DNA from: Lacinutrix jangbogonensis
GTDB lineage: Bacteria; Bacteroidota; Bacteroidia; Flavobacteriales; Flavobacteriaceae
Length of the DNA stretch: 64,000 nt
NCBI RefSeq assembly: GCF_000797445.1
Contig: NZ_JSWF01000021.1
Location: 1-64,000, forward strand
Reading direction: 5' to 3'
The notes beneath the pieces are model-generated. The model was not told the origin of the DNA, searched no databases, and saw only the letters and a list, made by a program, of their open reading frames with translations. Shown in pieces: positions 18,235 through 35,800 of this stretch; position 1 is the first letter of the stretch; every line of letters starts with the position of its first letter. Made by a program: the position numbers and the translations under genes.

Positions 18235-21200
18235 TTAATTTTTAATAAAACGTTTTACTCCTATTTTTCCATCTTGTGTATATACTTTTAATAAATACAA
18301 TCCAGTAGATAGGTTTGAAACATAAATTTTAGAAGTAGTTCCTTCCTGTATTTTTTGTCCTTGTACAGTATAGATTTCTACTCGTTCTAAAGTACCATCT
18401 AACAGAATATTTAAAATGTTATTTACAGGATTTGGGTATAGTTTCAATTCATTTATATTTAACTCGAAACTCTCTGCACTCAATGTAGAATTATACTCGT
18501 AAGCACCCATATCTACTGTTGAGTTGAATATTCTTTGGTTTCCTAAAAGATCTTCTGTTCCTAGTACAAAACTATTATCTCCATTGTCAATTGCTGGTGA
18601 TATAGAAGTTAAAGTAAAATCACTTGCTACAACATTTATAAATAAAGGGTTTGCATTACTAGTATTATTCTTTACAGATGGTGGAACGGTAGAAAAATTA
18701 TCTTCTGCTATAGAATTATTTACAGAAATTGCATTTACAAATGTTGTATGACCTCTAGTTAAAGCAGGAGTTACTGCATTTCCACCACCTTCATTCCCAT
18801 AAAAAATACTATTAGAAATGGTAGTATTGTGTGTCGCTCCAGTTCCTCTTGATAAACTTACAGCACCACGTTGTGTAAGTGGTCGCGTTCCAATATCTCT
18901 GTTTTCTGCAAATGTACAATTCACAATATTAGATGTTAATGTACCTCCGCTTCCATTAGATCTCAACCACATTGCACTTCCTGTAAAGCCTAAATCTCCA
19001 CCATTATTTTGTGATGTATTATTATAAAACAAACTGTTTACTACTGTTGCACTACTTACTTGATTGACTCCATTTAATATGTAAATACCTCCATAAGTAC
19101 ATAGGTTGTTATAAAAAGTACTGTTTTGAATGTCTAAATCTCCTCCTGAATCGAATCTAGAATAGATAGAAGCACCTCCAATTGCGACATTCTTTCTAAA
19201 CGTTGAGTTTTTAATACTTAAATCTAGAACTGTAAAGCCTTTAATAATACCTCCACCAAATTTTTCGTTTACTGCACCACCATTCGATTGTCCTCCTTCA
19301 ACTACAATACCATCTATTAACACATTATTTCCGTTGATTGTTAAAACATGGTATACATTTTCACCGCGAGAATATCCACTAAATCCGACTCCTGTATCAT
19401 TATTATTAATATCACCACTTAATGTACTTTCTATATTGATAAAATCTCTTTCACTTAAAAGTGTTTCCGTTCCTACAAATCCACCATAAACTTTTAAATC
19501 ATTTTGAGTAATTGTAAAAGAATTATTACGATTTCCTGCTGGTGGCGTATAAGTTCCAGCTGCTATCCATATTTTATCTCCATCTTGTGCAACTGCTAAT
19601 GCATCTTCTAATAAAACAAAAGCGTTTTGCCAGTTTGCACCTGTATTAGTTCCTGCTGCATTTTCGTTAACAAAAATTGGAGTATCGAAGCCTATTGTTT
19701 TCATTGTGTATACTCCTGGAGTTCCTGAACAATAAGCTCTCACATATACATCATAAAAACCAGATGCTAATCCTGTTACTTGATGACTTGTTGTTGTTAA
19801 GCCAGAAACTGTTGTACCAGTATTCATTGGTTGTCCACTTTCTACATAAATTAAATCGAATGGTCCAGATGGATTGAATGAATGACTCCAAGATATATTT
19901 GCTTGATTAGTACCTTGTACCGCTGTTATTCCTGCAATAGATATTTCATTACATTCTGCTCTTAATTCATAAACGCCTAAATCGACAGTATTAGCAATAA
20001 TACGGTCTTCTCCTACTAAATCTGTAACTACATCATTTAACACAAAAGTATTATCTCCTGCGTCAATTGCTGGCGATCCATTTTGTAAAGTATAATCACC
20101 ACCTGCTAAATCTGTAAATAAAGGATCACTTGTAGAAACATTAACTCTCCAAACTGCTGGAAAGCTTAATAATCCATCTTCGGCAATAACATTATTTGCT
20201 CTTTCTACATTAGCACCAAATCCTTGAGAATGTAACAAAAACCCACTTCTTCTATTATTCCAAAAAATAGAATTGTATGCATAGAAAGCCATTTGTCCTT
20301 GCGTTCCATCTGTATATATTGCACCTCTAAACGAATAACTTAATGTTCCTTGATCTGTATTGTTTACGACTGTACAATTACGCATATATAAGCTTAAACT
20401 TCCTGAATTACTAGCTTTAAAACCACCTGCTGGACCTGTTAACCCTGGTCGTCCTGGTGCATCTTCAATTTTATTACCATCAAATAAAACGTTTTGAAGT
20501 TCTACTACTCCAGTTGTACTACTTGATTTAAAAAAATATGCATATATACCTGCATAATATGTACTTAAATTATTTCTAAATATAGAATTTTCTATGCGTA
20601 CATCATCTGTTCTATTTAATTGGCATAACATTCCTGCACCAGAATTAACTGCAACATTATTTTCAACAATTACATTACGCATTACCAGATTCCCAGATTC
20701 TACATTTTTGTGAATTCCTGCTCCGCTTCCAACAGCTTCTCCTCCACTTACTGTAAACCCATCTATAGTAACATCATCTGCTAAATAGATATGTAATACC
20801 CGTGAACTGTTATCTGCTCGTGTTGTGTTTCCAAAACTAAGTATAGCATCATCGTTTGCAAAAAGATCACCAGATAATACAGTTGGATTTGCAATCAAAT
20901 CTCTTTGTGACAAACTTGTTTCTGTACCTGCAAAACCACCAAACACTTTAGTATTATCTTCAGTAATATTGAAACTAATTGAAGTATCTATAAAATCTGG
21001 AATATATGTTCCTGTAGCAACCCAAATATCTGTTCCTGTTATATAGTTTGTAAATGCCGTTTGTAAATTAGTATATGCATTTGTCCAAGACGTTCCATCG
21101 TTTAATCCAGCTGCAGTTTGATTTACATATACAATTCCCGAACTTGTAGTAAACTGATTAAAACCAGACCATGCAGATGGTGATCCGTAATTACAATGCC

Positions 21201-22212
21201 TCCTTAAGTAAACATTATATGTTGTGTTTGGAGTTAGATTGGGAATAGTCGTATTAATAGTACCTTGGCTAGTAATTATTGATGCACTCGCAAATGGCAT
21301 TCCATCTTCAACAACAGCAATGTCATACGTAGCAACTTCTGGAAAAATAATATTTGTTTCTGTTGACAAAGTATTTGTTATTGAAAACTCTGCTGTCGTT
21401 GGTGGAAAACAAAACCCTAAGTTGTTTCCTAATGCATTTACTTCTGGAGTTGTTAATACTCTTTCATATAAATAAATATCATCAATTTCATCTAAATACA
21501 CATTGGCATTTGTTAGTGGTGAAGCAGTAGCTTTATTTGCTATCGTTACGTTTTGATTTGCGTTTAATGGATTGTCTATAGACAAAGAGTTTTGATTTGT
21601 TTTTGTAAATGATTGTGAAACGCCATCTATAAAAATATCAAAATAATAGGTAAGAAGATATTGTGAATTAGCAAAATTACCAACCTCTGGATAAGTACGA
21701 CGAGAATTCACAACAATGTGATGCCACTCATCATCATCAATTAATTCTGTATTGAAGTAATCAAAAGAATTTTGTGTATTCGCACCTCCTGGAGCATTAC
21801 TTTGTACGTAAGAACCTTGAATTCCTATTTGTCCATCTTTTTGATAGATATGAAACCCTGTTTCAAATGTTCCGAAACCAGCTCCAGAACGAAAACTTTT
21901 ATCAAAAATTGTTCTATAATTCGCGTCGTTTGTCGACGTTTTAATCCAAAAACTTATAGAACTATTAGTTGAATTAAAATTCCCTCTAGTAAGGTAATCT
22001 CCATTAAGTTGTTTAGCATTTGTTGTTGTCGCAAAGCGATCATTAATATTTACTGTTGCTGTTCCTGTTTGCACCAAATCTTCTACTCCTGGCGTAACTT
22101 GATTTTCAAGGTTTCCATTTGTAAAGGAATATTTAGCAATTTCGTCTGTAGGCAGTTGAGCAAAAGCAAAACTACTTACTAAAAGTAGTGTTAAAAGTAT
22201 TCGTGTTTTCAT
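18235..22212 (-). CDS. T9SS-secreted protein: LamG domain plus two FN3/beta-helix modules
   Basis: This 1325-residue protein has a signal peptide (MKTRILLTLLLVSSFAFAQ). A LamG/concanavalin-like domain follows at about 25-260 (SISFWIKTSTNDANYRTIFD). Two copies of an FN3-like domain plus a right-handed beta-helix come next. The helices open with VNQTAAGLNDGTSWTNAYTN (about residue 360) and VNENAAGTNTGANWQNAF (about 850), and both end with SPAID(A/N)GDN ... VDLGVYE / VDMGAYE. It ends with a T9SS type A domain (LKLYPNPVNN ... GLYLLKVYTQDG ... KRFIKN). It is expected to be exported and attached outside the cell, binding or cutting polysaccharide, although no catalytic residues can be named. Its promoter has a LytTR-type box. 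It is a close relative of the 750-residue protein at 26567. Confidence 0.9.
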   Translation of the reverse strand: MKTRILLTLLLVSSFAFAQLPTDEIAKYSFTNGNLENQVTPGVEDLVQTGTATVNINDRFATTTNAKQLNGDYLTRGNFNSTNSSISFWIKTSTNDANYRTIFDKSFRSGAGFGTFETGFHIYQKDGQIGIQGSYVQSNAPGGANTQNSFDYFNTELIDDDEWHHIVVNSRRTYPEVGNFANSQYLLTYYFDIFIDGVSQSFTKTNQNSLSIDNPLNANQNVTIANKATASPLTNANVYLDEIDDIYLYERVLTTPEVNALGNNLGFCFPPTTAEFSITNTLSTETNIIFPEVATYDIAVVEDGMPFASASIITSQGTINTTIPNLTPNTTYNVYLRRHCNYGSPSAWSGFNQFTTSSGIVYVNQTAAGLNDGTSWTNAYTNLQTAFTNYITGTDIWVATGTYIPDFIDTSISFNITEDNTKVFGGFAGTETSLSQRDLIANPTVLSGDLFANDDAILSFGNTTRADNSSRVLHIYLADDVTIDGFTVSGGEAVGSGAGIHKNVESGNLVMRNVIVENNVAVNSGAGMLCQLNRTDDVRIENSIFRNNLSTYYAGIYAYFFKSSSTTGVVELQNVLFDGNKIEDAPGRPGLTGPAGGFKASNSGSLSLYMRNCTVVNNTDQGTLSYSFRGAIYTDGTQGQMAFYAYNSIFWNNRRSGFLLHSQGFGANVERANNVIAEDGLLSFPAVWRVNVSTSDPLFTDLAGGDYTLQNGSPAIDAGDNTFVLNDVVTDLVGEDRIIANTVDLGVYELRAECNEISIAGITAVQGTNQANISWSHSFNPSGPFDLIYVESGQPMNTGTTVSGLTTTSHQVTGLASGFYDVYVRAYCSGTPGVYTMKTIGFDTPIFVNENAAGTNTGANWQNAFVLLEDALAVAQDGDKIWIAAGTYTPPAGNRNNSFTITQNDLKVYGGFVGTETLLSERDFINIESTLSGDINNNDTGVGFSGYSRGENVYHVLTINGNNVLIDGIVVEGGQSNGGAVNEKFGGGIIKGFTVLDLSIKNSTFRKNVAIGGASIYSRFDSGGDLDIQNSTFYNNLCTYGGIYILNGVNQVSSATVVNSLFYNNTSQNNGGDLGFTGSAMWLRSNGSGGTLTSNIVNCTFAENRDIGTRPLTQRGAVSLSRGTGATHNTTISNSIFYGNEGGGNAVTPALTRGHTTFVNAISVNNSIAEDNFSTVPPSVKNNTSNANPLFINVVASDFTLTSISPAIDNGDNSFVLGTEDLLGNQRIFNSTVDMGAYEYNSTLSAESFELNINELKLYPNPVNNILNILLDGTLERVEIYTVQGQKIQEGTTSKIYVSNLSTGLYLLKVYTQDGKIGVKRFIKN

Positions 22213-22255: not shown

Positions 22256-22324
22256 TAAAGAAAATGGAATCGTGTTATATTATAACAAAGCGTTTTATGA
22301 ATTGCAGATTGGCTTTGTGAATGG
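22256..22324 (-). promoter_or_regulatory. LytTR-type box A and -7 element, promoter of the 1325-residue protein
   Basis: The box lies at 22294-22324. On the plus strand it reads TTTATGAAT, 11 bp (TGCAGATTGGC), TTTGTGAAT, then GG. The element TTTCTTTA (minus strand, 22263-22256) stands exactly 30 bp from the box edge, in the -7 position. A TTG (CTTTGTTATA) lies directly after the box at the -33 position. The same layout occurs at four other promoters in the window. Confidence 0.75.
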
Positions 22325-22394
22325 TATTATTGTTATTAACTAGCTTCTTTAAAAAAAAAGATTAATTTTTCAACATAAAAAAAATGACAATAAA

Positions 22395-22422
22395 AAGGCT
22401 CAGTTATAATAACTAAGCCTTT
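22395..22422 (-). terminator. Terminator of the LRR/InlB-repeat protein gene
   Basis: AAAGGCTCAGTT and AACTAAGCCTTT form a 12-bp stem with one mismatch around a 5-base loop, flanked by A and T tracts. It is almost the same sequence as the terminator at 26510. Confidence 0.8.
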
Positions 22423-22447
22423 AAAAATAATCTATTCGTGATAGGGT

Positions 22448-25084
22448 TTATTCTTTAATAAAGCGCTTTACGCCTACCTCACCTTTTTGAGTTTCAATTT
22501 TTAACAAATACATTCCTTTCGATAAGTTTGAAACATTAATTCTAGAGCTGGAGCTTTCTAAAACTTTTGTTCCTAAAAGAGAGAATACTTCTACTTTTTC
22601 CAGAGTTTCGTATAATTGAATGTTTAAAATAGCATTAGTTGGATTTGGATATATTTTCAACCCTTGAAGATAATCTACTTCATTTATTCCTAAAGCTGGT
22701 TCAAACTCTACAGTCACTGCTTTATCGGCATTCATTGTAATTTGTATTGAATTTACAGTACCTGCTACTACATCTCCAGTCCATTCTTTTATAGCAAAAC
22801 TTGAACCTGGTGTAGCCGTTAATGTTACTACGTCTCCATGATTGTAAACTGTTCCAGAAGCAACATCTACAGTACCTGTACCAATAATATTAACAATTAA
22901 TGTTCGTTGAATTGAACTAAATGTTGCTGTAACCGTTCTATTAGAATCCATTGTAATACCTGTTAGATTTGAATTGCCACTGGCATCACCAGACCATCCG
23001 TCAAATTGATATCCTGTGTCCGGTATTGCTGTTAAAACAATCTCCTCTCCACTAGCATAGGTTCCGTTTACTGGGTTAGGATTTGTTGTTACTGTTCCGT
23101 TGATTGCATTTATAGTTAAAACTGGTCTTTCTATAACAGAAACGCCTTCAATAGTTGTATCAGCGGTTACAGTAATAGTTGTTGGATTCTGAGAAAACAC
23201 ACCATAATTAGATATATTCCAACTATTATATATATAACCCGCATCTGGAGTTACTGTTAATGTAACTACCGTTCCGTCTGCATAAGTTCCGTTTATTGGA
23301 CTTGGACTCACTGTTACTGTTGAATTTGTTTCAATGATAGTTAATGTATGTTGTATAGGAATTAAACTAAATATTGCTGTAATAGTTTTATCAGAATCCA
23401 TTGTAATACTTAATGGATTTGTAGTTCCACTTGCATCTACTGACCAGCCATCAAATTGGTAACCTGCATCTGGAGTTGGTATTACACTAACTACTGTTCC
23501 ATCAGTATATGTTCCATTGGTTGGATTTGGATTGGTTGCAACGGATCCGTTTGTAGCAGTAATTGCTAAGGTTCTTTGTATAGTTGTTTGGCAATTAAGA
23601 CTAAAACTTGATGCAGGATCTATGTATGTCCAGTTTGCTGTACTGTAAGCGACATTATCTACCTGTATACAAGTTAGATCTGGGTTACTACCTGCATCGA
23701 ACCTGTTGGTTGTAATATTTGTATTGTTTCCATTCGCTACATTTAAACTTGTTAAACCGTTTGATCTACAATACAATTCTACTAAATTCGTATGATTAGA
23801 AACATCTAAACTACTTATAGAATTGTAACTACAACTAAGTTTTGTTAAACTCGTATTGTTAGAAACATTTAAACTCATTAAAGAGTTTGAGTGACAAAAT
23901 AATTCTGTTAAACTCGTATTGTTAGAAACATTTAAACTCATTAAAGAGTTTGATGCACAATTAAGTTTCGTTAAATTAGTATTTGTTATGACACTTAAAC
24001 TATTTATAGAATTATTAGCACAATTAAGGTCTGTTAAACTCAAATTATTAGAAATATCTAAACTGTTTATATTATTATTATTATTACAATGAAGATATGT
24101 TAAACCGGTGTTGGTAGAAACATTTAAACTGTTTAGAGAATTAGAAGTAAGATCAAGATACGTTAAACCTGTATTGTTGACAACGTTTATAGTACTTATA
24201 GAATTATTATTACAATCAAGATATGTTAAACCGGTGTTGGTAGAAACATTTAAATTGGTTAGTGAGTTACCAACACATCGCAATTCTGTTAAAGCCGTAT
24301 TATTAGAAAGATCAATACTACTTATAGAAGTATAATTGAAATTAAGATCTGTTAAATTCGTATTGTTAGAAACGTTTAAATAAGTTAGTAAGTTATCACT
24401 ACAGTTTAACGATGTTAAAGCCGTAAAAGCTTCTATACCTGTTAAATCTGTTATATTTAGGCTAGAACAATCAATAGTTCCTGTAAAGGCACTTGCTTCA
24501 CTACATTGTATTTCATTATCATTATTGGTATCAATTGCTGAATTATTAGCTAAATACAATTCAAAATTGGTATCCGGTATGTTTACAGTTCCTGTACAAC
24601 CTGGTACAGTGTAGGGTGTAAACACAATATCATCTATAGCAAACCTGGCTAAACCACCACTACTCTCTGTAATTGTAAAACTAGTAACACCTGTCCAATT
24701 AACATTTACTGTACTTCCTGCTCCTAAAGCTAGTATTGCAACAACATTAGAATTTGCACCTCCTGTTGGTGAGAATGTTCTACTACCAGCAGCAGCATTT
24801 CCGTCAAAAGCATATATGGATTGAATATTTATAGGAGCACTAAATGTAACAGTGATAGAGTTTACAGGTTGACCAGAAACTATTATATTTCCAGTAGTTC
24901 CTGCAAAACCACCGCCATTAAGCACAGTAACATCATTTGAAGAATTGGTGCATTCCGCTTGTATACCCGCAACAGTTTGTCTTACATAGTTAGTGCCATT
25001 AAATGACACTGATTCCCAATCAAACGTTTGGGAGTAACTTAATGAAGATAATAGTGTGAATAGTAAAAGTAATTTTGTTTTCAT
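22448..25084 (-). CDS. T9SS-secreted protein with leucine-rich repeats and InlB-type B repeats
   Basis: This 878-residue protein has a signal peptide (MKTKLLLLFTLLSSLSYSQ). An N-terminal beta domain covers about 20-160. About a dozen 21-residue leucine-rich repeats follow at roughly 200-445 (pattern LTxLNCxxNSLxSLNVSNNT). Three to four divergent InlB B-repeat-like domains at about 490-800 share YADGTVVTLTVTPDAGY, FDGWSGDASG and MDSNRTVTATF. The protein ends with a T9SS type A domain (LKIYPNPTN ... GMYLLKIETQKG ... KRFIKE). This is typical of cell-surface binding proteins. It has its own LytTR-type box and terminator, so it is a single-gene unit of the LytTR set. Confidence 0.9.
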   Translation of the reverse strand: MKTKLLLLFTLLSSLSYSQTFDWESVSFNGTNYVRQTVAGIQAECTNSSNDVTVLNGGGFAGTTGNIIVSGQPVNSITVTFSAPINIQSIYAFDGNAAAGSRTFSPTGGANSNVVAILALGAGSTVNVNWTGVTSFTITESSGGLARFAIDDIVFTPYTVPGCTGTVNIPDTNFELYLANNSAIDTNNDNEIQCSEASAFTGTIDCSSLNITDLTGIEAFTALTSLNCSDNLLTYLNVSNNTNLTDLNFNYTSISSIDLSNNTALTELRCVGNSLTNLNVSTNTGLTYLDCNNNSISTINVVNNTGLTYLDLTSNSLNSLNVSTNTGLTYLHCNNNNNINSLDISNNLSLTDLNCANNSINSLSVITNTNLTKLNCASNSLMSLNVSNNTSLTELFCHSNSLMSLNVSNNTSLTKLSCSYNSISSLDVSNHTNLVELYCRSNGLTSLNVANGNNTNITTNRFDAGSNPDLTCIQVDNVAYSTANWTYIDPASSFSLNCQTTIQRTLAITATNGSVATNPNPTNGTYTDGTVVSVIPTPDAGYQFDGWSVDASGTTNPLSITMDSDKTITAIFSLIPIQHTLTIIETNSTVTVSPSPINGTYADGTVVTLTVTPDAGYIYNSWNISNYGVFSQNPTTITVTADTTIEGVSVIERPVLTINAINGTVTTNPNPVNGTYASGEEIVLTAIPDTGYQFDGWSGDASGNSNLTGITMDSNRTVTATFSSIQRTLIVNIIGTGTVDVASGTVYNHGDVVTLTATPGSSFAIKEWTGDVVAGTVNSIQITMNADKAVTVEFEPALGINEVDYLQGLKIYPNPTNAILNIQLYETLEKVEVFSLLGTKVLESSSSRINVSNLSKGMYLLKIETQKGEVGVKRFIKE
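23740..24440 (-). repeat. 63-bp tandem repeats encoding leucine-rich repeats
   Basis: About eleven units of 63 bp (21 codons) can be followed. Several neighbours are almost identical in DNA, for example the stretches around 23850-23960 and those around 24095-24130 and 24230-24260. This suggests recent expansion by unequal recombination. Confidence 0.8.
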
Positions 25085-25109
25085 TTTAGTATTGTTTTAA
25101 AATATTTGT

Positions 25110-25178
25110 GTAAAGAAAATGGAATCGTGTTATGTTATAACAAATCATTTTGTGAGTTGCAGATTGGCTTTGTGAATG
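25110..25178 (-). promoter_or_regulatory. LytTR-type box B and -7 element, promoter of the LRR protein
   Basis: The box lies at 25148-25178, with half-sites TTTGTGAGT and TTTGTGAAT and the same 11-bp spacer (TGCAGATTGGC) as box A. The element TTTCTTTA (25117-25110) is again 30 bp from the box. The sequence from the box to the -7 element is close to that of box A, so one promoter was copied from the other. Confidence 0.75.
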
Positions 25179-25285
25179 GTGTTTTTTACTTGTGAGGTTT
25201 AAAAAACGCATGGCCAACTTTTTAAAATCACATAGGAGAAATACTATTAGAAAACAGTATTTATAGTATTAAATCACAAAAAAGA

Positions 25286-25307
25286 AGGCTACCAAAAAAG
25301 ATAGCCT
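25286..25307 (-). terminator. Terminator of the 335-residue secreted protein gene
   Basis: AGGCTA and TAGCCT form a short stem around an A-rich 10-base loop, preceded by an A tract and 19 bp after the stop of the minus-strand gene. It is weaker than the other terminators of this block. Confidence 0.5.
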
Positions 25308-25326
25308 CCTATATATAATTTAATAA

Positions 25327-26334
25327 TTATTTAATTGTAACGCTTCTATCACAACCAGAATTTGCTGTGTAACAACTAGAACCTGCACCTCCAGAATTTG
25401 AATCGAATTTATATGTGTAATTGAATGAGCAATCTACTTTTGTATAGCTATTACTATTTATACGTGTTCCATTTCTAGAACCTTCTTTATAAACGTAAAT
25501 ATCTTTACCAGTTTTGTTAATAATAGTTACTGTTTTTTTAGCATTGTTATTATCCATCTGCTTCATACGTGCTTGGTGAGCCACTAATTTTTTATGAGCA
25601 GGTGTCGCTCTAATAGAGTCGTTATATCTCTTTATTTCTTCATCTCCAGCTTCTCTTGCGCGTTTAATTTTAGCAATATCAGCTTTATCTTTAGACGTTA
25701 ATGGTATTGCTTGTTTGGTTTTCATTGCAGTTACATAATCGTTAAATTTTTTCTCTATGTTTACTGTCTTTATATACTTAAATGCTGGAGACGTTTTACG
25801 TCCTGCATTTTTTAGTTTTGCTTTCATTCTTCCTAATAAACCACCTTTCTTCTTCTTTTTCTTTCCGGTCTCCGCTTTTGTTTCTGCTCGGTCTTTGACC
25901 ATTACAAATATAGAAGTCACGTTTCCTAATTTTGGAACACCGTTATCTGGGATATTATCTACTACAAATAATAGATCGTCAATCATCATATAACCGTCGT
26001 CTGTATAGTCATGTTTTATAGACATTACATTTGGGTAGCTATCTACTCTACCGTAGTCGCTTAATTCGGTTTCACTAAAACCACCATAATTTTCTAAAAC
26101 TGGTACTGCTTTGAAACCTACCGGCTGACCAGTAGCTAATCTCTTTACTGTTAATTTAACAGCTGGCACACCTCTTTCAAAATTGTAAGTTCCATCGCCA
26201 TTTGCAGATTTTCCCGCAAAACCTTCGTAAGTGGTCGTTTCTCCATTAGCTTCTATTGCTTCGTAAAAGTTTTTTTGAGCTTGTGATATGCTTACCACAA
26301 AAAATAAGGCAGCGACTGTAATTATTGTTTTCAT
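25327..26334 (-). CDS. Secreted protein of unknown function under a LytTR-type promoter
   Basis: This 335-residue protein has a signal peptide (MKTIITVAALFFVVSISQAQ). The first half is beta-rich. A strongly basic linker (KKKKKKGGLLGRMKAKLKNA) lies near residue 160. A charged helical stretch spans about 195-270. A C-terminal part (VTIINKTGKDIYVYKEGSRN followed by GTRI, then a Cys-containing SSCYTANSGCDRSVTIK) could be a small disulphide-bonded beta domain. There is no T9SS type A ending, unlike its neighbours. I do not recognise the family. Its promoter has the same LytTR-type box as the neighbouring secreted proteins, so it should be expressed with them. Confidence 0.75.
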   Translation of the reverse strand: MKTIITVAALFFVVSISQAQKNFYEAIEANGETTTYEGFAGKSANGDGTYNFERGVPAVKLTVKRLATGQPVGFKAVPVLENYGGFSETELSDYGRVDSYPNVMSIKHDYTDDGYMMIDDLLFVVDNIPDNGVPKLGNVTSIFVMVKDRAETKAETGKKKKKKGGLLGRMKAKLKNAGRKTSPAFKYIKTVNIEKKFNDYVTAMKTKQAIPLTSKDKADIAKIKRAREAGDEEIKRYNDSIRATPAHKKLVAHQARMKQMDNNNAKKTVTIINKTGKDIYVYKEGSRNGTRINSNSYTKVDCSFNYTYKFDSNSGGAGSSCYTANSGCDRSVTIK

Positions 26335-26358
26335 TTGTATTTAATTTTAAGATTCATA

Positions 26359-26427
26359 CAAATAAAAATGAATCGTAGTAAAGTATAACAAAGGGTTTTA
26401 TGAATTACCGATTGGCTTTGTAAGGGG
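26359..26427 (-). promoter_or_regulatory. LytTR-type box C and -7 element, promoter of the 335-residue protein
   Basis: The box lies at 26397-26427 with half-sites TTTATGAAT and TTTGTAAGG, the most degenerate copy. TTTATTTG (26366-26359), one base from TAnnTTTG, stands 30 bp from the box. A TTG next to the box fits the -33 element at 22-bp spacing. Confidence 0.7.
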
Positions 26428-26509
26428 TGAAAACATTTCAATAAATGATTTATTTTGAGTTAAAATTGAAAGTCATCAGCCACGTATATAGCCTATAAAA
26501 ATGACAAAA

Positions 26510-26538
26510 AAAGGCTCAGTTATAACAACTGAGCCTTT
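26510..26538 (-). terminator. Terminator of the 750-residue LamG/beta-helix protein gene
   Basis: A perfect 12-bp stem (AAAGGCTCAGTT / AACTGAGCCTTT) with a 5-base loop is flanked by A and T tracts. It lies 28 bp past the stop of the minus-strand gene. Confidence 0.88.
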
Positions 26539-26566
26539 AAAAAAACATAGCCTACTAAAAATGAAT

Positions 26567-28819
26567 TTATTCTTTTATAAAACGCTTTACTCTAATGCTA
26601 CCATCTTCTGTATATACTTTTAAAACGTATACTCCAGATGATAAATTTGCAACATTAATATTGTTTTTAGTACGTTCCAAAACTTTAGCACCTAAAATAG
26701 AATACACCTCTACTTTTTCTATTGTACCTTCTAGTTTTATATTTAAAATAGTAGTTACAGGATTTGGATACACTGCAAAATTCTCCAATAAAACGCTTAC
26801 TTCGTTTACACTTAAAGTAGTACTAAACTCGTAAGCTCCCATATCTACAGTTGTATTAAAAACACGTTGGTTTCCAAGTAAATCTAATGTGGTATTTACA
26901 TAGCTATTATTACCTGCATCTTTTGCTGGAGAATTAGCTTGCAATGTATAGTCTGTTAGACTTGTAAACAATGGATTTGCAGTATTTGTAGCTGTAGCAC
27001 TTGTAATACTTGCATCGTTAAAGTTTAATGGATCTATAGAATTTAAAACACTTATAGATTGCGCTGCAGCATTATAAGTATTCGTAATAGATCTTACTGG
27101 AGTGTTTGTAGTCTGTGTTGGTCTGTAGTTATCCCAAAAAATACAATTAACAACTTCTGCTATTATAGTTCCCGCTGTTTTGTTAATAGCAACTGTTGCT
27201 CTACTGTTATCGTTAAGACTATTTCCTGTAGAATCATCAATGTTATTAACAAAAGTGTTATTTATTAATTTTATATTTACATCTGTACTTGTACCAATCG
27301 ATCTAAACCATGCTGCACTTCCACTTAACCCTTTAGTGCTATTAGATAAATCTCCGGCCACATTATTGTCGAATAAGCTATTTTCAATCCTTATGTCGAC
27401 ATTTGTATCTGCTTTTGCATAACTGTAAATACCAGAACCATAAAGCGACATATTATTTATAATTTTACAATTCTCTACTATAAGCTCTCCTCTAGCACCT
27501 GTATTAGAATTTAAAGAAGGAAAGCCATTATTTAATTCAAATTCTGCAAATAAACCTGATGCACCATTTTTAGCTATATTATTTAAAATAGTACAATTAT
27601 TTAATGTTAATTTTACTATTGACTTTTCTTTAATAATAGCAGCACCTCTTGTTGAAGTACTATTATGAGCGTTAGAAACCGTTAAACCGTCTAATACTAA
27701 ATTTTCACCTAAATCTGTAATATTTAAAATGTGATGACTATTATCTGTCTTACTTGAATGATTATTACTATTTATATAATGATCGTCTACAAAAACATCA
27801 TTTCCTAGTAAATCTCCAGATAAAATAGTTTCGTTACTACCTAAAACACGCTCAGACAGTTGTGTTTCTGTACCTGTAAAACCACCATAGATACTTAAAT
27901 TTGGAGCTATAATATCAAACCTTGCAGAACGATTGCTTATTTCTGGCTTATATGTTCCAGAAGCTATCCAAATTTCATCTCCATCTGTAGCGTTTGTTAA
28001 TGCACTTTGCAAATTTTTATATGCATTCGACCAAGATGAACCATCATTATTTCCTGTTGCTGATACTGATGCATCAATATAAAATTTAGTTAGTGCACTT
28101 GTAGTTGGGTAATAAGCAGATAAATCAGCGATTTGTGTATCTGAAAGTGCCGATTTATAGAAATATACATCGTCTATACTTCCTGTATATCCACCGGTTG
28201 GGTTTATCACCATTTGTGCAGATTCTAAAAATGTTGCAATTCCAGTATTAAATGGATCAATAAAACCAGAAATGTTATTTTGTATAGTGCCATCAACAAA
28301 AACATCTAATTCTAGTCTTGCTCCTGAATACGTTAGAGTTGTTCTTAAAGTAATATTATGCCATTGATTATCTGCTATAGTAACATAATCGTCCGAGTTC
28401 CAATCATTAAGTGTACCTGATACAACTGATTCAATTTTTGACCTTAGATACAGTTTTTGACCATCCATTTCAAATCTAAAACCATAACCTCCAGCTCCAT
28501 AAACTTGAATTATACGTTGACCGTTACTGTTGGTTGATAGATTGTTTTTCACCCAAAAACTTAACGTTACCTCTTTGTAGTCTGAAGTTCCTAAAGTATG
28601 GCCTGCTAAAACACTAGTACTTGCTATTGCATCGTTAACATTCCCATTTCTATCTATTCCAAATGTTACTGTTCCTGCCAAATCTGGACCTCCATTTGCT
28701 GCTATGTTTACCAAACTTCCATTGGTAAATTCAAATTTACCATAGTGACCAGATGGTAATATTTGTGAAAAAGAAAAACTACATACAAGTAGCAATAAAT
28801 AAAGTAAACGTGTTTTCAT
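26567..28819 (-). CDS. T9SS-secreted protein: LamG domain plus one beta-helix
   Basis: This 750-residue protein has a signal peptide (MKTRLLYLLLLVCSFSFSQ). A LamG domain follows at about 25-235 (VTLSFWVKNNLSTNSNGQRI, then FVDGTIQNNI). A right-handed beta-helix of about 245-665 begins IDASVSATGNNDGSSWSNAY and ends SPAKDAGNN ... VDMGAYEFS. The C-terminus is a T9SS type A domain (FAVYPNPVTT ... GVYVLKVYTEDG ... KRFIKE). It has the same design as the 1325-residue protein at 18235 but only one helix module and no FN3. It is probably an exported surface carbohydrate-binding or depolymerising protein. It carries a LytTR-type box at its promoter and lies directly downstream of the kinase gene on the same strand. 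Confidence 0.9.
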   Translation of the reverse strand: MKTRLLYLLLLVCSFSFSQILPSGHYGKFEFTNGSLVNIAANGGPDLAGTVTFGIDRNGNVNDAIASTSVLAGHTLGTSDYKEVTLSFWVKNNLSTNSNGQRIIQVYGAGGYGFRFEMDGQKLYLRSKIESVVSGTLNDWNSDDYVTIADNQWHNITLRTTLTYSGARLELDVFVDGTIQNNISGFIDPFNTGIATFLESAQMVINPTGGYTGSIDDVYFYKSALSDTQIADLSAYYPTTSALTKFYIDASVSATGNNDGSSWSNAYKNLQSALTNATDGDEIWIASGTYKPEISNRSARFDIIAPNLSIYGGFTGTETQLSERVLGSNETILSGDLLGNDVFVDDHYINSNNHSSKTDNSHHILNITDLGENLVLDGLTVSNAHNSTSTRGAAIIKEKSIVKLTLNNCTILNNIAKNGASGLFAEFELNNGFPSLNSNTGARGELIVENCKIINNMSLYGSGIYSYAKADTNVDIRIENSLFDNNVAGDLSNSTKGLSGSAAWFRSIGTSTDVNIKLINNTFVNNIDDSTGNSLNDNSRATVAINKTAGTIIAEVVNCIFWDNYRPTQTTNTPVRSITNTYNAAAQSISVLNSIDPLNFNDASITSATATNTANPLFTSLTDYTLQANSPAKDAGNNSYVNTTLDLLGNQRVFNTTVDMGAYEFSTTLSVNEVSVLLENFAVYPNPVTTILNIKLEGTIEKVEVYSILGAKVLERTKNNINVANLSSGVYVLKVYTEDGSIRVKRFIKE

Positions 28820-28847
28820 AATATATTTGATTTTTATTTTAAAAGAC

Positions 28848-28916
28848 CAAATAAAACAGAACTATGTATTATTATAACAAAACGTTTTATGAATTGCAGA
28901 TTGGCTTTGCGAATGG
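28848..28916 (-). promoter_or_regulatory. LytTR-type box D and -7 element, promoter of the 750-residue protein
   Basis: The box lies at 28886-28916 with half-sites TTTATGAAT and TTTGCGAAT and spacer TGCAGATTGGC. TTTATTTG (28855-28848) is exactly 30 bp from the box. A TTG lies next to the box in the -33 position. Confidence 0.75.
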
Positions 28917-28982
28917 TAAGAATTGGAGTTGAAGAAAAGAATAAAATAACTACTAGAAAATAGTTAACGTGTTATAAAAAAA

Positions 28983-31907
28983 TTAAAACCTATTTTTATA
29001 GGGCATCGTTAAAATTACTTTTGTGCCTTTGGCTATTTCATTTTCATATAAATCCTCAATAACATAACCTATATTTTCGGCATACTGTTTTTTAAAGATT
29101 TCTAAGCGTTTTTCTATTGCATTTAAAGCAAATGATTTGTGATGGTTTCCCTGTCTATTTGATATTTCTGTAGACTTCACTCTACCAATACCATTATCTG
29201 TAATTGTACATTGTAGTACGTTTTTCGCAAAACTAAATACAATATGGAGTTCTTTTTTACCCGCTTTATGCATTAAACCATGTACTAAAGCATTTTCTAT
29301 AAATGGTTGTATTAACAACGATGGAACTTCTAAAGATTCTTTTTCATCAAAATGAATGGTATAATTAAAATCATCACCAAAACGTAGTTTTTCTAATTGT
29401 AAATACACATTTAAAAAATCTAACTCCTTATCTATTGAAATAAAATCTTGACTTGAATACACAAGGGTGTTTCGAACCAATTGTGCGAATAGCACAATAT
29501 AATCGTAAGAGGCATCTGTATCTTGTTTTAATATTAAATCTTGTATAGAATTTAAAGCATTAAAAATAAAATGCGGATTCATTTGTGACCTTAGTGCTGT
29601 TAAATTTATGGATATCAGTTCTTTTTCTAAAGATATTTTTTCTAATTCCGTAAGGCGTTCCTTCTTATCCTTTTTTATTTTTTTTCTGAAGTACAAAATA
29701 GTGCTACCAATAAAGAACACAAAAATTCCTAAAATAAACCACCAAGTTTTCCAAAAAGGTTTATTTATTGTAAAATCGATTGCTTTTATTTTATTAACAT
29801 CAAATTTTTCGTCGATAATAGGCTGCACTTCAAAAGTATATTTACCAGCAGGTAGACTATTATATTTTACAGAATTCGCTCCTTGATCTGTAGTTAACCA
29901 TTGGTTATTAAACCCTTTTAGGCGATAGTTATATTTTCGTTTCTGATTATATAAAAACCCATTGACATTAAACCCTATTTTTATAGCATTCTGGTCATAT
30001 TTTAAGCTATAATTAGAGGCGATTAAAGTGTCACTTTCATTAATTTCAACTGTATTAAAATAAACCTCTGGATTTTCGTTTTTAAATGGTTGTTCTTTAT
30101 TTATAGAAAACAAACCTTCGTTAGACGAAAAGTAGACTTTATTTTTAAGTATTTCAATTCCCGAAATATCATAGGATACAACACCTTCTCTCTTTGTTAG
30201 AGTTTGTATTTTCTTGGTTTTGATATCTAATAATTGTATGCTATTATCTAGGGTTATCCATAATTGGTTATGGTCTGCTTTAACCATACCAATTTTATTA
30301 GATGTTAATCCATTTTCAATAGAATAATGATGGATAATACTATCGTTTTTAATACCTATAACACCATCTTTAAATGTAGATACCCAGATTACACCGTTTG
30401 TAGTTTTAGTTATAGATTTGACATCTATTGATTTGTTATTATAACGAATGGGTTTAGAATTCCATAAGCTATCGTAGCGCAATAAATTATCGACATAGGC
30501 AATATAAACAGATTTATTAGTGGTGTTGTAATAAGATGTATACGTTCTTTTCCCTCCCTGATCTTTGTCAATTACAACATTATTTAAACCTGTTTCATCA
30601 CTTATATTCACACCACTATTGCTGGTATAAAGTAGTTTTTTATTATTTAATATCGTTAAACTTTTAGCCGTTGAAAGGCCACTAATTTTATTAAGCTCAA
30701 AGGATTTCATATTAAACGTAAATCCACCAAAATCTTTACTAATAAATACGGTGTTTTTTGATGGAAAATACTTTAAAACAGAAACACGATCTTTTGTTGG
30801 TAAATCTATAATACTAATACTATCTGTTTTAGTATTATAAAACCCAATATTCCCTTTCGTATTTCCAAAAACTAGTGTACTATCATTAATAACATCTAAA
30901 CTGCTAATGTTTTTATTTTCATTAGAAATTGTAGCTTTTTCAATATTAATATTTGGGATTACATATATACCGTCGTTTAAAGTTGTAAACCAATAATTTG
31001 CGTCGTTATCTTTTACAATTTTTGTTACATCATTCTTTTTTAAAAAGCGTTTCTTTAATTTAAAAGACTGTTTTTTATATTCGTAGACCCAAACACCTGT
31101 ACCTGTAGCAAACCAAATTTCATTATTATTTTCAAATTGATGATAGATACGTTCTCTAGCAATAGCTTCAAAACCATTAATAACATTTACCTCTTTCTTC
31201 TTTTTGTTAATATGAAAGAAACGATTTATACCATTTCTTTTTTGCCTAAAAAACAGTGTTGAATCTATTTTAAAAATAATGGCTTGATCTACACCTATTT
31301 TTTTACCACTTTTATCTTTAAAAGGTAAACCTACTGGTACAATTCTATTAATATTATTTTTGGGAGTAATACTATATATAGAGTCTATACTTCCAAAATA
31401 AATGGCATCTTTAAATACAAAAGGAGCTCCCTTTATTTTTCTAGGAAGGGAATGAGTATATTCTATCTTTTTTGTTTTTAAATTTATTTTATAGGTTTTA
31501 TAATAAGCAAATACCCATAAATACTCTTTTTTAATAATAAACTCTGCTAACTGCCCTCTAAGTTCTTTGCTTAAATCTGCAAATAATTGTAATTCATTGT
31601 TTTCTGTATAGAAAAACTGACCAGAAACATTATTACACCAAATACGCCCTAAATGATCTTCTTGGGCATTAAAAACAGATAAGGCTCGTTGTAAGTTATT
31701 ACTATAACTTTTATAGTTTTTACCATTATATCTAAACAAACCTTTGTCTGCGCACACCCAAATAAAGCCTTTAGAATCTTCAAAAAGATCATAAAACTCT
31801 TTGTCTGGTAAACCATTTTTCTCTGAGAAATGTACATACACAGGTTCCTGTCCCTGCATAAAAAATGAAGTACAAAAAATAATTAATAATGTTATTTTTT
31901 TTATCAA
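28983..31907 (-). CDS. LytS-type sensor histidine kinase with two-component propeller and Y_Y_Y domain
   Basis: This 974-residue membrane kinase has a signal segment (MIKKITLLIIFCTSFFMQGQ). Many two-component propeller repeats at about 25-640 form a periplasmic beta-propeller sensor (FSEKNGLPDKEFYDLFEDSK, then GFIWVCADKGLFRYNG). A Y_Y_Y domain at about 650-725 includes YNYRLKGFNNQWLTTDQGAN. One membrane helix follows (WWFILGIFVFFIGSTILYF). A His_kinase domain with LRSQMNPHFIFNALNSIQDL carries the phosphorylated His. The ATP-binding domain ends the protein (PFIENALVHGLMHK, ITDNGIGR). It lies 15 bp after the LytTR regulator gene and surely forms its pair. In Bacteroidota such propeller sensors often detect polysaccharides or peptides; the ligand here is unknown. 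Confidence 0.93.
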   Translation of the reverse strand: MIKKITLLIIFCTSFFMQGQEPVYVHFSEKNGLPDKEFYDLFEDSKGFIWVCADKGLFRYNGKNYKSYSNNLQRALSVFNAQEDHLGRIWCNNVSGQFFYTENNELQLFADLSKELRGQLAEFIIKKEYLWVFAYYKTYKINLKTKKIEYTHSLPRKIKGAPFVFKDAIYFGSIDSIYSITPKNNINRIVPVGLPFKDKSGKKIGVDQAIIFKIDSTLFFRQKRNGINRFFHINKKKKEVNVINGFEAIARERIYHQFENNNEIWFATGTGVWVYEYKKQSFKLKKRFLKKNDVTKIVKDNDANYWFTTLNDGIYVIPNINIEKATISNENKNISSLDVINDSTLVFGNTKGNIGFYNTKTDSISIIDLPTKDRVSVLKYFPSKNTVFISKDFGGFTFNMKSFELNKISGLSTAKSLTILNNKKLLYTSNSGVNISDETGLNNVVIDKDQGGKRTYTSYYNTTNKSVYIAYVDNLLRYDSLWNSKPIRYNNKSIDVKSITKTTNGVIWVSTFKDGVIGIKNDSIIHHYSIENGLTSNKIGMVKADHNQLWITLDNSIQLLDIKTKKIQTLTKREGVVSYDISGIEILKNKVYFSSNEGLFSINKEQPFKNENPEVYFNTVEINESDTLIASNYSLKYDQNAIKIGFNVNGFLYNQKRKYNYRLKGFNNQWLTTDQGANSVKYNSLPAGKYTFEVQPIIDEKFDVNKIKAIDFTINKPFWKTWWFILGIFVFFIGSTILYFRKKIKKDKKERLTELEKISLEKELISINLTALRSQMNPHFIFNALNSIQDLILKQDTDASYDYIVLFAQLVRNTLVYSSQDFISIDKELDFLNVYLQLEKLRFGDDFNYTIHFDEKESLEVPSLLIQPFIENALVHGLMHKAGKKELHIVFSFAKNVLQCTITDNGIGRVKSTEISNRQGNHHKSFALNAIEKRLEIFKKQYAENIGYVIEDLYENEIAKGTKVILTMPYKNRF

Positions 31908-31922
31908 TAGAGATAATAGTTA

Positions 31923-32672
31923 TTATAATTGAACAATGTTTTTAAATTGATCTATTCTAGATCTAGAAATTTTAGCTTTAACCGTTCCATTAGCTAAAGT
32001 AATAGTTTGTTCTGCTTTATTTAAACATTCTACATGTATAATATTAATAATCCATGCCCGATGAGAACGAAAAAATGAGACATCTTTAGGGAAAACGTTT
32101 TCAAAATATTTTAAATTCTTACTCGTTGTAATGGTTTTACTATTCTTTAAATAGATTTTACTATAAGCTCCATCAGCTTCAAGAGCAATAATATCTTCTA
32201 TGCTTACTATGCGTCTATTACCTAGTTCTGGGATTATAATTTTTTTATAATCCTTATCTTTAATTGTTTTTAATAAGGTTTGGTAGTCTACTAATGCAGC
32301 TTGTTTTATTAATTTATCCTCTAATTTTACTAGAGTCAATGCTAATTTTTTTCTATCAATAGGTTTTACGAGATAGTCAATTGCATTTAATTCAAAAGCT
32401 TTTATAGCGTAATGGTCGTAAGCGGTTACAAAAATAATTTCAAAATTTATTTCATCAAAAAAGTTTACAATTTCATAACCTGCATAGTTAGGCATTTGTA
32501 CATCTAAAAAAACTACGCTGGGTTGTAGTGCTTTAATTTGTTTTACACCATCTTCTAAATTACTACAAGTGGTTAGGATATTAATATTGGAAGATGTTCT
32601 TTCTAATAAATTAGTGAGCACATTTCTTGCGCTTTGTTCGTCATCTATTAGTATAGCATTAATTTTATCCAT
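31923..32672 (-). CDS. LytTR-family response regulator
   Basis: The receiver domain (MDKINAILIDDEQSARN, phospho-Asp in VVFLDVQMPNYAGYE near residue 54, Lys in LVKPIDRKK) is followed by a LytTR DNA-binding domain (VSIEDIIALEADGAYSKIYL, SFFRSHRAWIINI). It is 249 residues from the start at 32672. I prefer this start to the ATG at 32690 because a perfect -7 element, TATATTTG, covers 32685-32678, so transcription should begin close to 32672. The same LytTR-type box found upstream of four secreted-protein genes precedes it, so it probably activates itself and those genes. The kinase gene follows after 15 bp. Confidence 0.92.
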   Translation of the reverse strand: MDKINAILIDDEQSARNVLTNLLERTSSNINILTTCSNLEDGVKQIKALQPSVVFLDVQMPNYAGYEIVNFFDEINFEIIFVTAYDHYAIKAFELNAIDYLVKPIDRKKLALTLVKLEDKLIKQAALVDYQTLLKTIKDKDYKKIIIPELGNRRIVSIEDIIALEADGAYSKIYLKNSKTITTSKNLKYFENVFPKDVSFFRSHRAWIINIIHVECLNKAEQTITLANGTVKAKISRSRIDQFKNIVQL

Positions 32673-32677
32673 AAAAA

Positions 32678-32746
32678 CAAATATAAGCATAGTACTATTA
32701 TTTAACCTAATAGACTTTATGAATGGCAGATTGAGTTTGTGAGATC
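32678..32746 (-). promoter_or_regulatory. LytTR-type box E and -7 element, promoter of the two-component operon
   Basis: The box lies at 32716-32746 with half-sites TTTATGAAT and TTTGTGAGA and spacer GGCAGATTGAG. TATATTTG (32685-32678), a perfect TAnnTTTG, is exactly 30 bp from the box, the same distance as in the other four promoters. I see no TTG at -33, which fits a promoter that depends on an activator. Confidence 0.75.
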
Positions 32747-32844: not shown

Positions 32845-35800
32845 CTACTTTCTAACACTATCTGAAACCAAAAGTTTTCCTTTTTGAATTCGATTTTCGC
32901 TATGAAGAACATACATATAAAGCCCAGAACTTAATTGTAAATGCCCTATTGGAATTGTAGTATTCGATGCGGTCTTAAATTGTGCTATCTGCTTTCCTTG
33001 AATACTATACAGTGTAAATTTAATGGTATTATCTTCAGGACTTTTTATTGTTATAATACCATTACTTGACACGGGATTTGGGTAGACTAAAAATGTGTTA
33101 GTCTCAAAATTATCGACACTAAGTATATTATTTCCTAGATTAATATTATCAATAAACAAGGTTTGACCATAAGCATTTACATTTCTAAATTTCACATACA
33201 CATTGTTAGAGCCAATATATGCAGCTAAATCTATGGTTTCTGTTCTCCATTGCGTATCTGTTGGTACAAATTCACTAGTTGTATTTGGTGCTGTAGCAAG
33301 ATCTGCTCCCACTTTATTATAGACAGATGTGTAGGTCGTGCCACAATCTGAAGAGATTAAAACTTCTAAACCATCGGCATAAAGACCTGAATATAGTGCA
33401 TAAGCAACATCAAAAGTAAGTACAGCATCACTAGCATTGGTTGCTGTCATATTTAAAGGCGCAATAATGTCACAATATGCTCCAACAGCGCTAAAAATAT
33501 AATTATTAACCATCATACAACTTGTACTTTGTCCAAAACCACCTACCGTGTTATTATACGTCCAATTAAAATTGCTACTGGCTTCTTGTGTCCATCCTTC
33601 TGGCATAAATTGGACTTCAAAATCTTCAGCTAAACTTGTTGCGCTTAAAGCTTGAACGTCTACTGTTAAAGTATCACTAGACGCAACTCCTGCAGCATTA
33701 GTAACCGTCAAAGTAACCAAATGCGAGCCTAAAGTAGTAAAAACAACTTCTGGATTTCTAATATTAGAGGTTGCTGTATTCGCATTTTCAAAGGTCCAAG
33801 CCCAAGTGGCTCCGCTATGATTTAACATCGAGTAATCATCAAAATAAAACACATCACCTGCACAAGTTGCCGTCAATTTATCGACCATAATTTTAGCAAC
33901 AGGTCTAGCTGTTGCTTCATACAATGGGCTTTCCCAAATTCCTTTTCCGTAGGTTGCCAAACGTATTTTACCATCACGATAAAATGGTTTTAAAGCACTT
34001 GTTCCTACCGTCGCTGGTAAATTTATAGCATCTAAAGTCCATGAAGACATGCTGTTGTTTTTGTAATACACAGAAGCACTTGTACCTACATAAACGCCTC
34101 CATTTGTGCCTCCAATAGTAACAATAGATTGAATGTTCTGAGCATTTAATGCACTTGACGTTTCATTAGTCCAAGACGTTCCACCAGAAGTAGTTTTGAA
34201 TACTTTATTGCCATTATTTCCGCGGGCATAAGCCAACCATAGTACTTGATCGTTTTCTGGGTCTAAGCTAATTAATGATCGGTTACCTCCTGTACTTGGC
34301 AATGTTATTGTGGATGTGTTTTGCCAATCGTCTGTTGTTTTTATTATCGAAGCATTACCAGAATTTGGACGCACAACAATGTACATGGTTTCTGTATTTG
34401 CTCTAGAAATTTCTATATCCAAAACTTCTGTATTCGCTGCTGCTGTATAGACTGATGTAAAACTAGTTCCACCATCTAAACTTTTATATAACTGGTTGTC
34501 TTTTCCTAAATACAAAATGTTGTGGCAGCTGGGATGAAATTCCATTTCTGAAGACTCTGCAAACCACGGACTTTCATTTGGTAGCATGGCTATTGCTGCG
34601 TTTAATACAGAACCAGTAATAGTTTGAGGTATAATTTTACTTCCAATAACACTAGAATATACACGTAACGTATTACTAGGATTTACATATCCTGAAGCAG
34701 GTTCTCCACCTCCTAAATCTAAAAATGCGCCACTAGGAAATCCTTCATAATAGACATCTACTCCATTATGAAACGTTCCGCCAACAAGTAAATCGTTATT
34801 CCATCCAGAATCAAATCCCCAAAAATCTACACTATTTACACCATTCATTTTAAATTCTGGTTGCGTTGCAAACAAATCATTAGATTTATAAACACCACCA
34901 TCTGTACTTGCCCAATATTCATTACCAAAAGCTCTAAAATCTTGCATATCAACATGCATTGGATTGTAATTACCACAGCCATAATTATAAATACAAGTAA
35001 AGGTTTGCCCGCCATCTGTAGAACGCCACATCCCAATGCCTCCTACTAGTATTTCATTTGCATTGGTATTAGAAGCCATCACAGCACAATTATAAAAGCC
35101 TTGGTTAAAACCACTACCATCTGGGTTAGATGAGATAAGATTAGGATGTGTTGTTCCGTCGTAAGGTGCACCGTCAAATCCCATAGTATTTGCCCAAGAG
35201 GTTCCACCATCATTACTTCTATAGATGCCTATAAACCCACTATCACCAGATTTAGAATCTCCTATTAAAAACGCATAAATCCTATCTGGATCGGCGTTAG
35301 AAACAGCAATTCTGGCTCCTACAACAGTTCTATTATCATCTGTAGAATTATACCAACCTGTAGTTTGTGGAGTCCAATTTACGCCTCCATTTGTAGAGGT
35401 TAAAAACTGATGGGTATTGGTTGCATTATTACGTCTTACCGTATATAAAATATTAGGATCATTAGTATTTGCTTTAACATCAAAACATTCAAAATTTAAA
35501 GTTTGTGTCCAAGTTGCGCCTCCATCTGCAGTACGATGCATTCCTGCTTTGCCTGCTACCAATACTATTTGAGGATTTACAGGATTGATAAAAATCTCTG
35601 CTGGATTTTCAATATAACCACCTAAAGTAATGTTACTATCAAAAACAGCAGTCCAATTTATACCACTATCTATCGTTTTAAAAACCTCACTTCCAGAACC
35701 TATGTATACAATTTCTGGATTTGTAGGATGAACCGCTAGCGCAGAAATCCCTGCATTTGCTATTACTGCTTGTGGAGCCAATGCTGTTATTAAAGATAAA

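Follow-up and report, generated by a model that had tools for sequence, protein, structure and literature searches.

AgrA of Staphylococcus aureus is a LytTR regulator which is autoregulated and controls surface and exported proteins. In the LytTR regulatory systems (LRS) the partner of the regulator is not a kinase but a membrane inhibitor protein. Hybrid two-component systems (HTCS) comprise sensor, kinase, receiver and an AraC-type DNA-binding domain in a single protein, and PorX/PorY-SigP controls the machinery of the type IX secretion system (T9SS). We analysed a two-component locus with a LytTR regulator, called module 1, which is located in a stretch of 64,000 nucleotides (nt) from Lacinutrix jangbogonensis (contig NZ_JSWF01000021.1, positions 1 to 64,000; this whole stretch is the window). 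A direct-repeat element, the box, is found there upstream of the regulator gene and of four genes encoding exported proteins. We consider it quite probable that the locus encodes an autoregulated LytTR two-component activator, which acts on itself and on the four exported genes through the five boxes.

Published LytTR sites consist of two repeats of 9-11 nt with a spacer of 11-13 nt and have no common consensus (PMC4847170; articles given by PMC number are cited from part of their text throughout). The same source names yhjX as the sole direct target of YpdB, and the promoter-proximal repeats of AgrA are centred near -60 (PMC4227749). The working principle, autoregulation by a LytTR two-component system, is already known. 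A literature search, with most subscription journals outside its reach, found no LytTR binding box described in Bacteroidota. As far as we searched, the new points are a LytTR box resolved to single bases in that phylum, two private boxes in a single genome, the conserved layout that predicts a leaderless regulator mRNA, and the exchange of sensor and cargo while the pair of regulator and box stays constant. The box, its spacing, its exclusivity in the genome, its co-inheritance, the domain content and the conservation of the leaderless layout were computed directly.

A direct repeat common to five promoters

The box is a direct repeat of TTCAYAAA, which recurs with a period of 20 bp from start to start in five minus-strand promoters, one of them that of the LytTR regulator; both the common element and the distance between the repeats had been described in the initial annotation. 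The pattern TTTATGAAT-N11-TTTGTGAAT with up to three mismatches has five matches in the window versus 0.61 expected, and none of 100 shuffled sequences reached five. The box was scored as a 29-mer, and consists of 9-nt repeats and an 11-nt spacer upstream of the core promoter, with the -7 element at a set offset. The spacer was only partly as conserved as claimed: GCAGATTGG is exact in three of the five boxes, but the regulator box has GCAGATTGA and the box before 26334 has ACCGATTGG. The -7-like octamer stands at an identical offset in all five cases, 29 nt past the 29-mer, so that the constant distance (given before as exactly 30 bp from the box edge) is real, although two of the octamers are weak. 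Compared to the consensus, the octamer of the regulator (TATATTTG) agrees in six of six positions, TTTATTTG (two promoters) in five and TTTCTTTA (two promoters) in four. By simple count, four of the five boxes are followed by a -33 TTTG. The elements are:

32715 to 32743, minus strand: box in the regulator's own promoter, CTCACAAACTCAATCTGCCATTCATAAAG
32678 to 32685, minus strand: -7 element TATATTTG, 29 nt past the box and 5 nt ahead of the regulator ATG
28885 to 28913, minus strand: box in the promoter of the 750-amino acid (aa) T9SS protein
28848 to 28855, minus strand: -7-like element TTTATTTG in the promoter of the 750-aa protein
26396 to 26424, minus strand: box in the promoter of the 335-aa exported protein P0003
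26359 to 26366, minus strand: -7-like element TTTATTTG in the promoter of the 335-aa protein P0003
25148 to 25176, minus strand: box in the promoter of the 878-aa T9SS protein with leucine-rich repeats (LRR) and InlB repeats
25111 to 25118, minus strand: -7-like element TTTCTTTA (weak) in the promoter of the 878-aa protein
22293 to 22321, minus strand: box in the promoter of the 1325-aa T9SS protein
22256 to 22263, minus strand: -7-like element TTTCTTTA (weak) in the promoter of the 1325-aa protein

Proteins encoded by the locus

On the minus strand the regulator gene is followed by the kinase gene and then by those for the exported proteins of 750, 335, 878 and 1325 aa:

31923 to 32672, minus strand: LytTR response regulator (receiver and LytTR domains), likely start 32672; the open reading frame (ORF) list gives 31923 to 32690
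28983 to 31907, minus strand: sensor kinase P0005 with Reg_prop propeller, Y_Y_Y and His_kinase domains
26567 to 28819, minus strand: exported 750-aa protein P0004 with Laminin_G_3/ConA-like domain, choice-of-anchor Q domain and T9SS type A sorting tail
25327 to 26334, minus strand: exported 335-aa protein P0003, no Pfam or NCBIfam match at E<=0.001
22448 to 25084, minus strand: exported 878-aa protein with LRR, InlB B-repeats and T9SS tail
18235 to 22212, minus strand: exported 1325-aa protein P0001 with fn3, choice-of-anchor Q domain and T9SS tail

The regulator contains both a receiver (Response_reg, 4.5e-20) and a LytTR domain (7.1e-15), and its sequence FFRSHRA is like the FhRhHRS motif (PMC4227749) except for the last residue. 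The adjacent partner kinase matches His_kinase of the PF06580 type (8.3e-23), and its sensor region matches the solved Bacteroides-type sensor kinases PDB 4a2l and 3v9f. Because the gap between the two genes is only 15 bp, with the kinase downstream, they probably form one operon. The kinase is read from a TTG start, and its orthologues in three relatives (L050, L051, L054) are likewise listed as ORFs with a start other than ATG.

Four exported proteins had been named as targets of the box. Three of them carry a T9SS tail, whereas P0003 has a signal-peptide-like start only. The fold of P0003, predicted from four sequences, has a mean pLDDT of 54 and a pTM of 0.34 and is confident only for about residues 268-335. 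Since a Foldseek search with this model gave nothing at E<=0.001 (weak VHL-beta and thaumatin-like matches only), no function is claimed for P0003. Nevertheless it is a recurrent cargo of module 1 and of a paralogous module 2 described below: P0003-family genes (E<=1e-8) are present in 6 of 349 genomes, and all six have module 1 or module 2.

The neighbouring sortilin/PKD T9SS protein (32845-36333) has no box. The next gene (36590-38548) encodes a beta-lactamase-fold serine hydrolase with tetratricopeptide repeats (TPR); several hydrolases of this kind also occur beside the LytTR modules of genome G026, which are more distant, and genome G079 has one close to its module. At the start of the contig (22-1122) head-to-tail units of 327 bp, which are 96-99% alike and have open frames, are repeated three times in full and a fourth time over 120 nt. 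They probably belong to a large repetitive protein whose sequence is truncated by the assembly.

The box in the genome and in related genomes

A sequence model of the five window boxes (R1) was run over the genome of 4.0 Mb and, in parallel, a model made from 38 sites of the window and 12 relatives (R2), with the best 150 first-look candidates scored in each search. R1 found the five window boxes at E 4e-10 to 1.3e-7 and the next match at 0.11; R2 found the identical five at E<=2.6e-6 and the next at 0.047. The box is thus private to this locus within the genome and does not occur at many unrelated promoters.

Of 180 relatives, 80 were kept in a scan of genome contigs for the regulator. The set of close orthologues (L049-L060, 63-76% identity) comes from Lutibacter, Polaribacter, Aureibaculum, Tenacibaculum, Aquimarina and metagenome-assembled genomes. 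When the motif is built from the window's five boxes alone, its best score lies between 18.2 and 28.4 in each of these 12 relatives; among 74 other loci two reach 15, with a maximum of 16.6. The comparison of upstream regions proposed in the initial annotation therefore came out in its favour: the box is retained wherever the close regulator is, in all 12 of these genomes and also in genomes G021 and G079.

A survey of 349 genomes of the family, made with stricter filters and with few candidates scored per genome, is independent of the partly circular R2 result for these 12 genomes given below. A regulator match at E<=1e-70 was found in that of the window (G000), G021, G079 and G026, the last with only 53-55% identity. 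A strong box (E<=3e-5, a cut-off chosen after the list had been seen) is present in G000, G021, G079 and G277. G026 has no strong box (best E 0.0018). G277 has no regulator match, yet its box precedes a remnant of this regulator, about 60 codons long, with the layout retained. The association of box and regulator gives a Fisher p of 1.6e-9 if the remnant is counted and G026 is not, and of 2.3e-6 in the strict count with G026 in and the remnant out. On these data the box is inherited together with the regulator. The module of G277 is decaying: one box (L184, contig C89) stands before the regulator remnant, and a second (L185, C51) has no long gene directly behind it.

Weaker R2 matches (E<=0.01) occur in 62 of the 349 genomes and are taken mostly as background. 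The best three of them outside the four genomes with strong boxes (G237, G116, G102) all lie inside reading frames. In 58 other LytTR loci (L071-L128), used for the background only, there is one match in a total of 0.93 Mb. Locus L062 with 54% identity has weaker box candidates at 2887, 9832 and 13730.

These comparisons also bear on a different origin of the box. The promoters at 22212 and 25084 resemble each other over a stretch of about 75 bp that contains the box, and P0001 and P0004 have a choice-of-anchor Q domain and a T9SS tail in common. The box could accordingly be a relic of a tandem duplication of surface-protein genes with their upstream DNA rather than a regulatory site. However, the box is also found before the regulator, whose promoter otherwise differs, and in other genera it is kept before unrelated proteins, with a constant -7 offset and a varying spacer sequence. 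We regard this origin as highly improbable, and it is largely refuted by the conservation across genera.

Promoter geometry and the sign of regulation

The spacing was followed over 58 distinct sites with a score of at least 19.5 (60 rows; window, L049-L060, L184, L186, L187, L243-L249). A TAnnTTTG-like octamer with at least five of six positions lies at offset 29 in 40 of the 58 sites and at offset 28 in 8, and each other offset from 18 to 37 occurs 0-2 times; the -7 offset is not included in the box motif. A regulator follows in 13 of the 60 rows and a different gene in 43. On visual inspection these 43 genes nearly all start with a signal-peptide or lipoprotein leader, and four are kinases. 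The exceptions with respect to the leader are a 67-aa peptide in L246 and a reading in L243, whose N-terminus was missed by the filter. The box of L246 (6355-6653, Tenacibaculum soleae) is weaker (E 1.3e-4) and unlinked, has a -7-like element at the usual offset, and its peptide has a double-glycine-like leader; the pair could be due to chance or the peptide could be under the same control.

In Flavobacterium johnsoniae the -7 element is located at -12 to -5 and transcription starts 4-5 nt after it (PMC6847099). If this rule is applied, the box would lie at about -70 to -42 with its centre at about -56. By analogy the architecture of the box fits the published LytTR sites (PMC4847170), and since these have the same architecture and position (PMC4847170, PMC6193735, PMC4227749), this supports a LytTR activator.

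The sign of regulation is not readable from sequence alone, and the regulator might instead repress through the box until the kinase relieves it. We consider repression unlikely. The site is upstream of the -33 region and not over the -7 element or the start, the poor -7 elements of two targets are in keeping with an activated promoter, and AgrA and HdrR are activators with similarly placed sites, while YpdB activates from a direct repeat (PMC4227749, PMC6193735, PMC4847170).

Several observations weigh against an activator acting through these boxes. The -7 match is poor (4 of 6) at two of the five window promoters. Four of the 60 rows lie inside an ORF or have no gene of at least 55 aa within 400 nt, one of them being the regulator remnant of G277. 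Two regulators are preceded by a low-scoring box, those of L051 (10.2) and G079/L187 (14.3). R2 detects strong boxes in 12 of 12 close-orthologue genomes, a result which is partly circular because all 12 supplied R2 sites; for homologues of up to 61% identity it detects a strong box in none of five genomes. The late choice of the cut-off for strong matches counts here as well. Finally, only 3 of 349 genomes, that of the window included, have a close orthologue, and several Aquimarina loci are close kin.

A second regulator with a different box

The same genome contains a paralogous module 2 on contig C32 (L043), which encodes a kinase, a LytTR regulator (P0009), a propeller-type kinase and two T9SS proteins. 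Its box has TTTCAGMAATT-like repeats with a period of 21 and is found at the two T9SS promoters and before the first gene of the module. At both T9SS genes a -7-like element CATCTTTG follows about 28 nt past the box. A model of box 2 (R3, 10 sites from 8 genomes) was run over the 349 genomes, again with stricter filters and few candidates scored in each. At E<=3e-4, a cut-off chosen after the list had been seen, its matches are confined to 14 genomes, all among the 22 with regulator 2 (E<=1e-90); eight of the 22 have no such match. The match ranked next (3.8e-4) comes from a genome that lacks regulator 2. In a held-out test R3 found box 2 in 6 of 14 regulator-2 genomes versus 0 of 327 genomes without the regulator. 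In the genome of the window R3 has three sites at E<=0.003, all in module 2. Genome G242 has a diverged variant of box 2 (scores 18.4 and 15.8) before a P0003-like gene and before the next gene. For the third pair of our genome (L044, C30) no shared target box was seen by eye.

Box 1 has no score of 12 or above in the module-2 locus, and neither has box 2 in the window. Between 14 sequences each of regulators 1 and 2 there are 32 group-conserved differing positions, one of which is a start-codon artefact and some of which are near the C-terminal end of LytTR. For regulator 2 this comparison uses the 14 of 22 loci (L193-L215 without L212) which yielded an ORF passing the strand and position filter; eight were dropped. 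The paralogous regulator differs both in its box and in its LytTR residues, which supports the assignment of box 1 to the module-1 regulator. In L052 (2543-8950) the two modules are adjacent: a kinase and regulator like those of module 2 come first, and the regulator and kinase of module 1 come next. The modules may thus have arisen in tandem.

The box might also be the site of another, unlinked transcription factor, with the LytTR regulator merely one of its targets. The genome has 18 matches to LytTR-like regulators at E<=1e-10, the module-1 regulator included, which speaks for such a factor. Box and module-1 regulator, however, have a common and very sparse distribution, and the paralogous regulator is linked in the same manner to a different box. 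We therefore hold an unlinked factor to be distinctly unlikely.

The interpretation as a LytTR activator, which was that of the initial annotation, is thus supported. For binding, phosphotransfer, the sign of activation, the start of transcription and the ligand we infer the following scheme. The propeller kinase would perceive a ligand in the periplasm and phosphorylate the regulator (31923-32672), whose predicted binding sites are the five boxes. The regulator would bind both direct half-sites beside the -33 region and recruit RNA polymerase. In this way it would activate its own operon, with positive feedback via a predicted leaderless mRNA, and the genes of four exported proteins, three of which are T9SS-sorted surface proteins with adhesin-like domains.

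Predicted leaderless mRNA of the regulator

In all 16 regulators compared (window, L049-L060, the G277 remnant, G021 and G079) the -7 element ends 4-5 nt ahead of the ATG. It agrees with the consensus in six of six positions in 14 and in five of six in two, and is located 27-29 nt past the best box position. The start at 32672 is preferred over the longer ORF start at 32690, as the initial annotation had it, and fits this layout in the relatives. A later start is implausible because the receiver domain begins at that ATG. With the F. johnsoniae start rule (PMC6847099) applied to the -7 position, the transcript start is predicted at or beside the AUG, and the regulator mRNA is predicted to be leaderless. 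At the other targets the start codon is mostly at least 55 nt beyond the box, and these should therefore have leadered mRNAs; readings of 25 nt (L054/L248) and 40 nt (L057) are, as read, upstream in-frame ATGs.

Leaderless mRNAs amount to 5.5% in Flavobacterium psychrophilum (PMC9723704), leaders under 10 nt to about 3.7% in Bacteroides thetaiotaomicron (PMC7366714), and in F. johnsoniae 87% of the predicted leaders exceed 10 nt (PMC6847099). This phylum is generally without Shine-Dalgarno sequences, and in the three species covered by these sources only a small share of the mRNAs is leaderless; the conserved layout makes a precise and cheap prediction.

Variation of sensors and exported proteins

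The propeller kinase was described as part of the module. This is true for the window and for L049-L054, G021 and G079, where full-length homologues are 50-67% identical. In the Aquimarina loci it is replaced by shorter kinases after the regulator, which match only the C-terminal kinase part and of which several stand in tandem in L056, L057 and L059. Pfam, run on the short kinases of L059 only, found no propeller, and TPRs in the last of four. This TPR kinase is preceded by a box of its own, as are the corresponding kinases in L056, L057 and L247. The cargo varies as well; apart from P0003-like proteins, Pfam identifies in it InlB-repeat and cadherin/NHL proteins and T9SS proteins of the LRR and beta-helix types.

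Beyond the loci compared there are six strong sites (E<=2.5e-6), each with a -7 element of five of six positions at offset 29. They precede P0003-like frames (L243, L245), T9SS proteins of 1862 and 1869 aa (L244, L248) and, as two separate sites in L247, a kinase and a lipoprotein-like gene. Just upstream in L245 is a propeller kinase 60% identical to P0005, whereas the regulator of that genome lies on a different contig. The regulon thus does not always form one locus; the earlier description as self-contained is correct for the genome of the window, where all sites are in one locus, but not for some relatives with sites on other contigs. Across these genomes regulator and box persist while sensors and cargo change.

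More tentatively, and with slightly less than even confidence, we propose that Flavobacteriaceae possess parallel, mutually insulated LytTR switches for surface display, each with a private box (TTCAYAAA with period 20; TTTCAGMAATT-like with period 21). Regulator and box would co-evolve while sensor (propeller or TPR kinase) and cargo are exchanged, and the module-1 regulator would drive itself via a leaderless mRNA. If this is true, a leaderless positive-feedback switch could respond independently of ordinary translation initiation and lead to all-or-none surface states. Two paralogous regulators, each with a box resolved to single bases and a conserved promoter spacing, are a test bed for the choice of DNA by LytTR domains, and the boxes give handles on when these bacteria display uncharacterised T9SS surface proteins.

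Comparison with known systems

YpdA/YpdB from Escherichia coli, a LytS/LytTR pair with a direct repeat of GGCATTTCAT, is similar in the combination of kinase and LytTR regulator, in the direct-repeat site and in having a private target (PMC4847170). The locus described here differs from it in the sequence of the box, the propeller sensor, the box at its own promoter, the several T9SS or exported targets and the Bacteroidota promoter. AgrC/AgrA from S. aureus likewise has a LytTR regulator on direct repeats, which in AgrA are centred near -60 (PMC4227749), whereas here the sensor is a periplasmic propeller and the box is different. The LRS HdrRM and BrsRM resemble the locus in positive autoregulation and in a LytTR regulator that acts on direct repeats immediately ahead of the core promoter (PMC6193735). 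Unlike in these, a receiver domain and a histidine kinase are present here. The sensor region with propeller and Y_Y_Y resembles the hybrid two-component sensors of Bacteroides (PDB 4a2l, 3v9f). However, P0005 shows neither a receiver nor a DNA-binding domain and is therefore no HTCS; the regulator is a separate protein, its DNA-binding domain is of the LytTR type, and there are four exported targets. With PorX/PorY-SigP the locus has in common a two-component control which touches type IX secretion. The PorX model scores only 34.6 bits versus a cut-off of 300, and the box is found on the cargo and not on the machinery.

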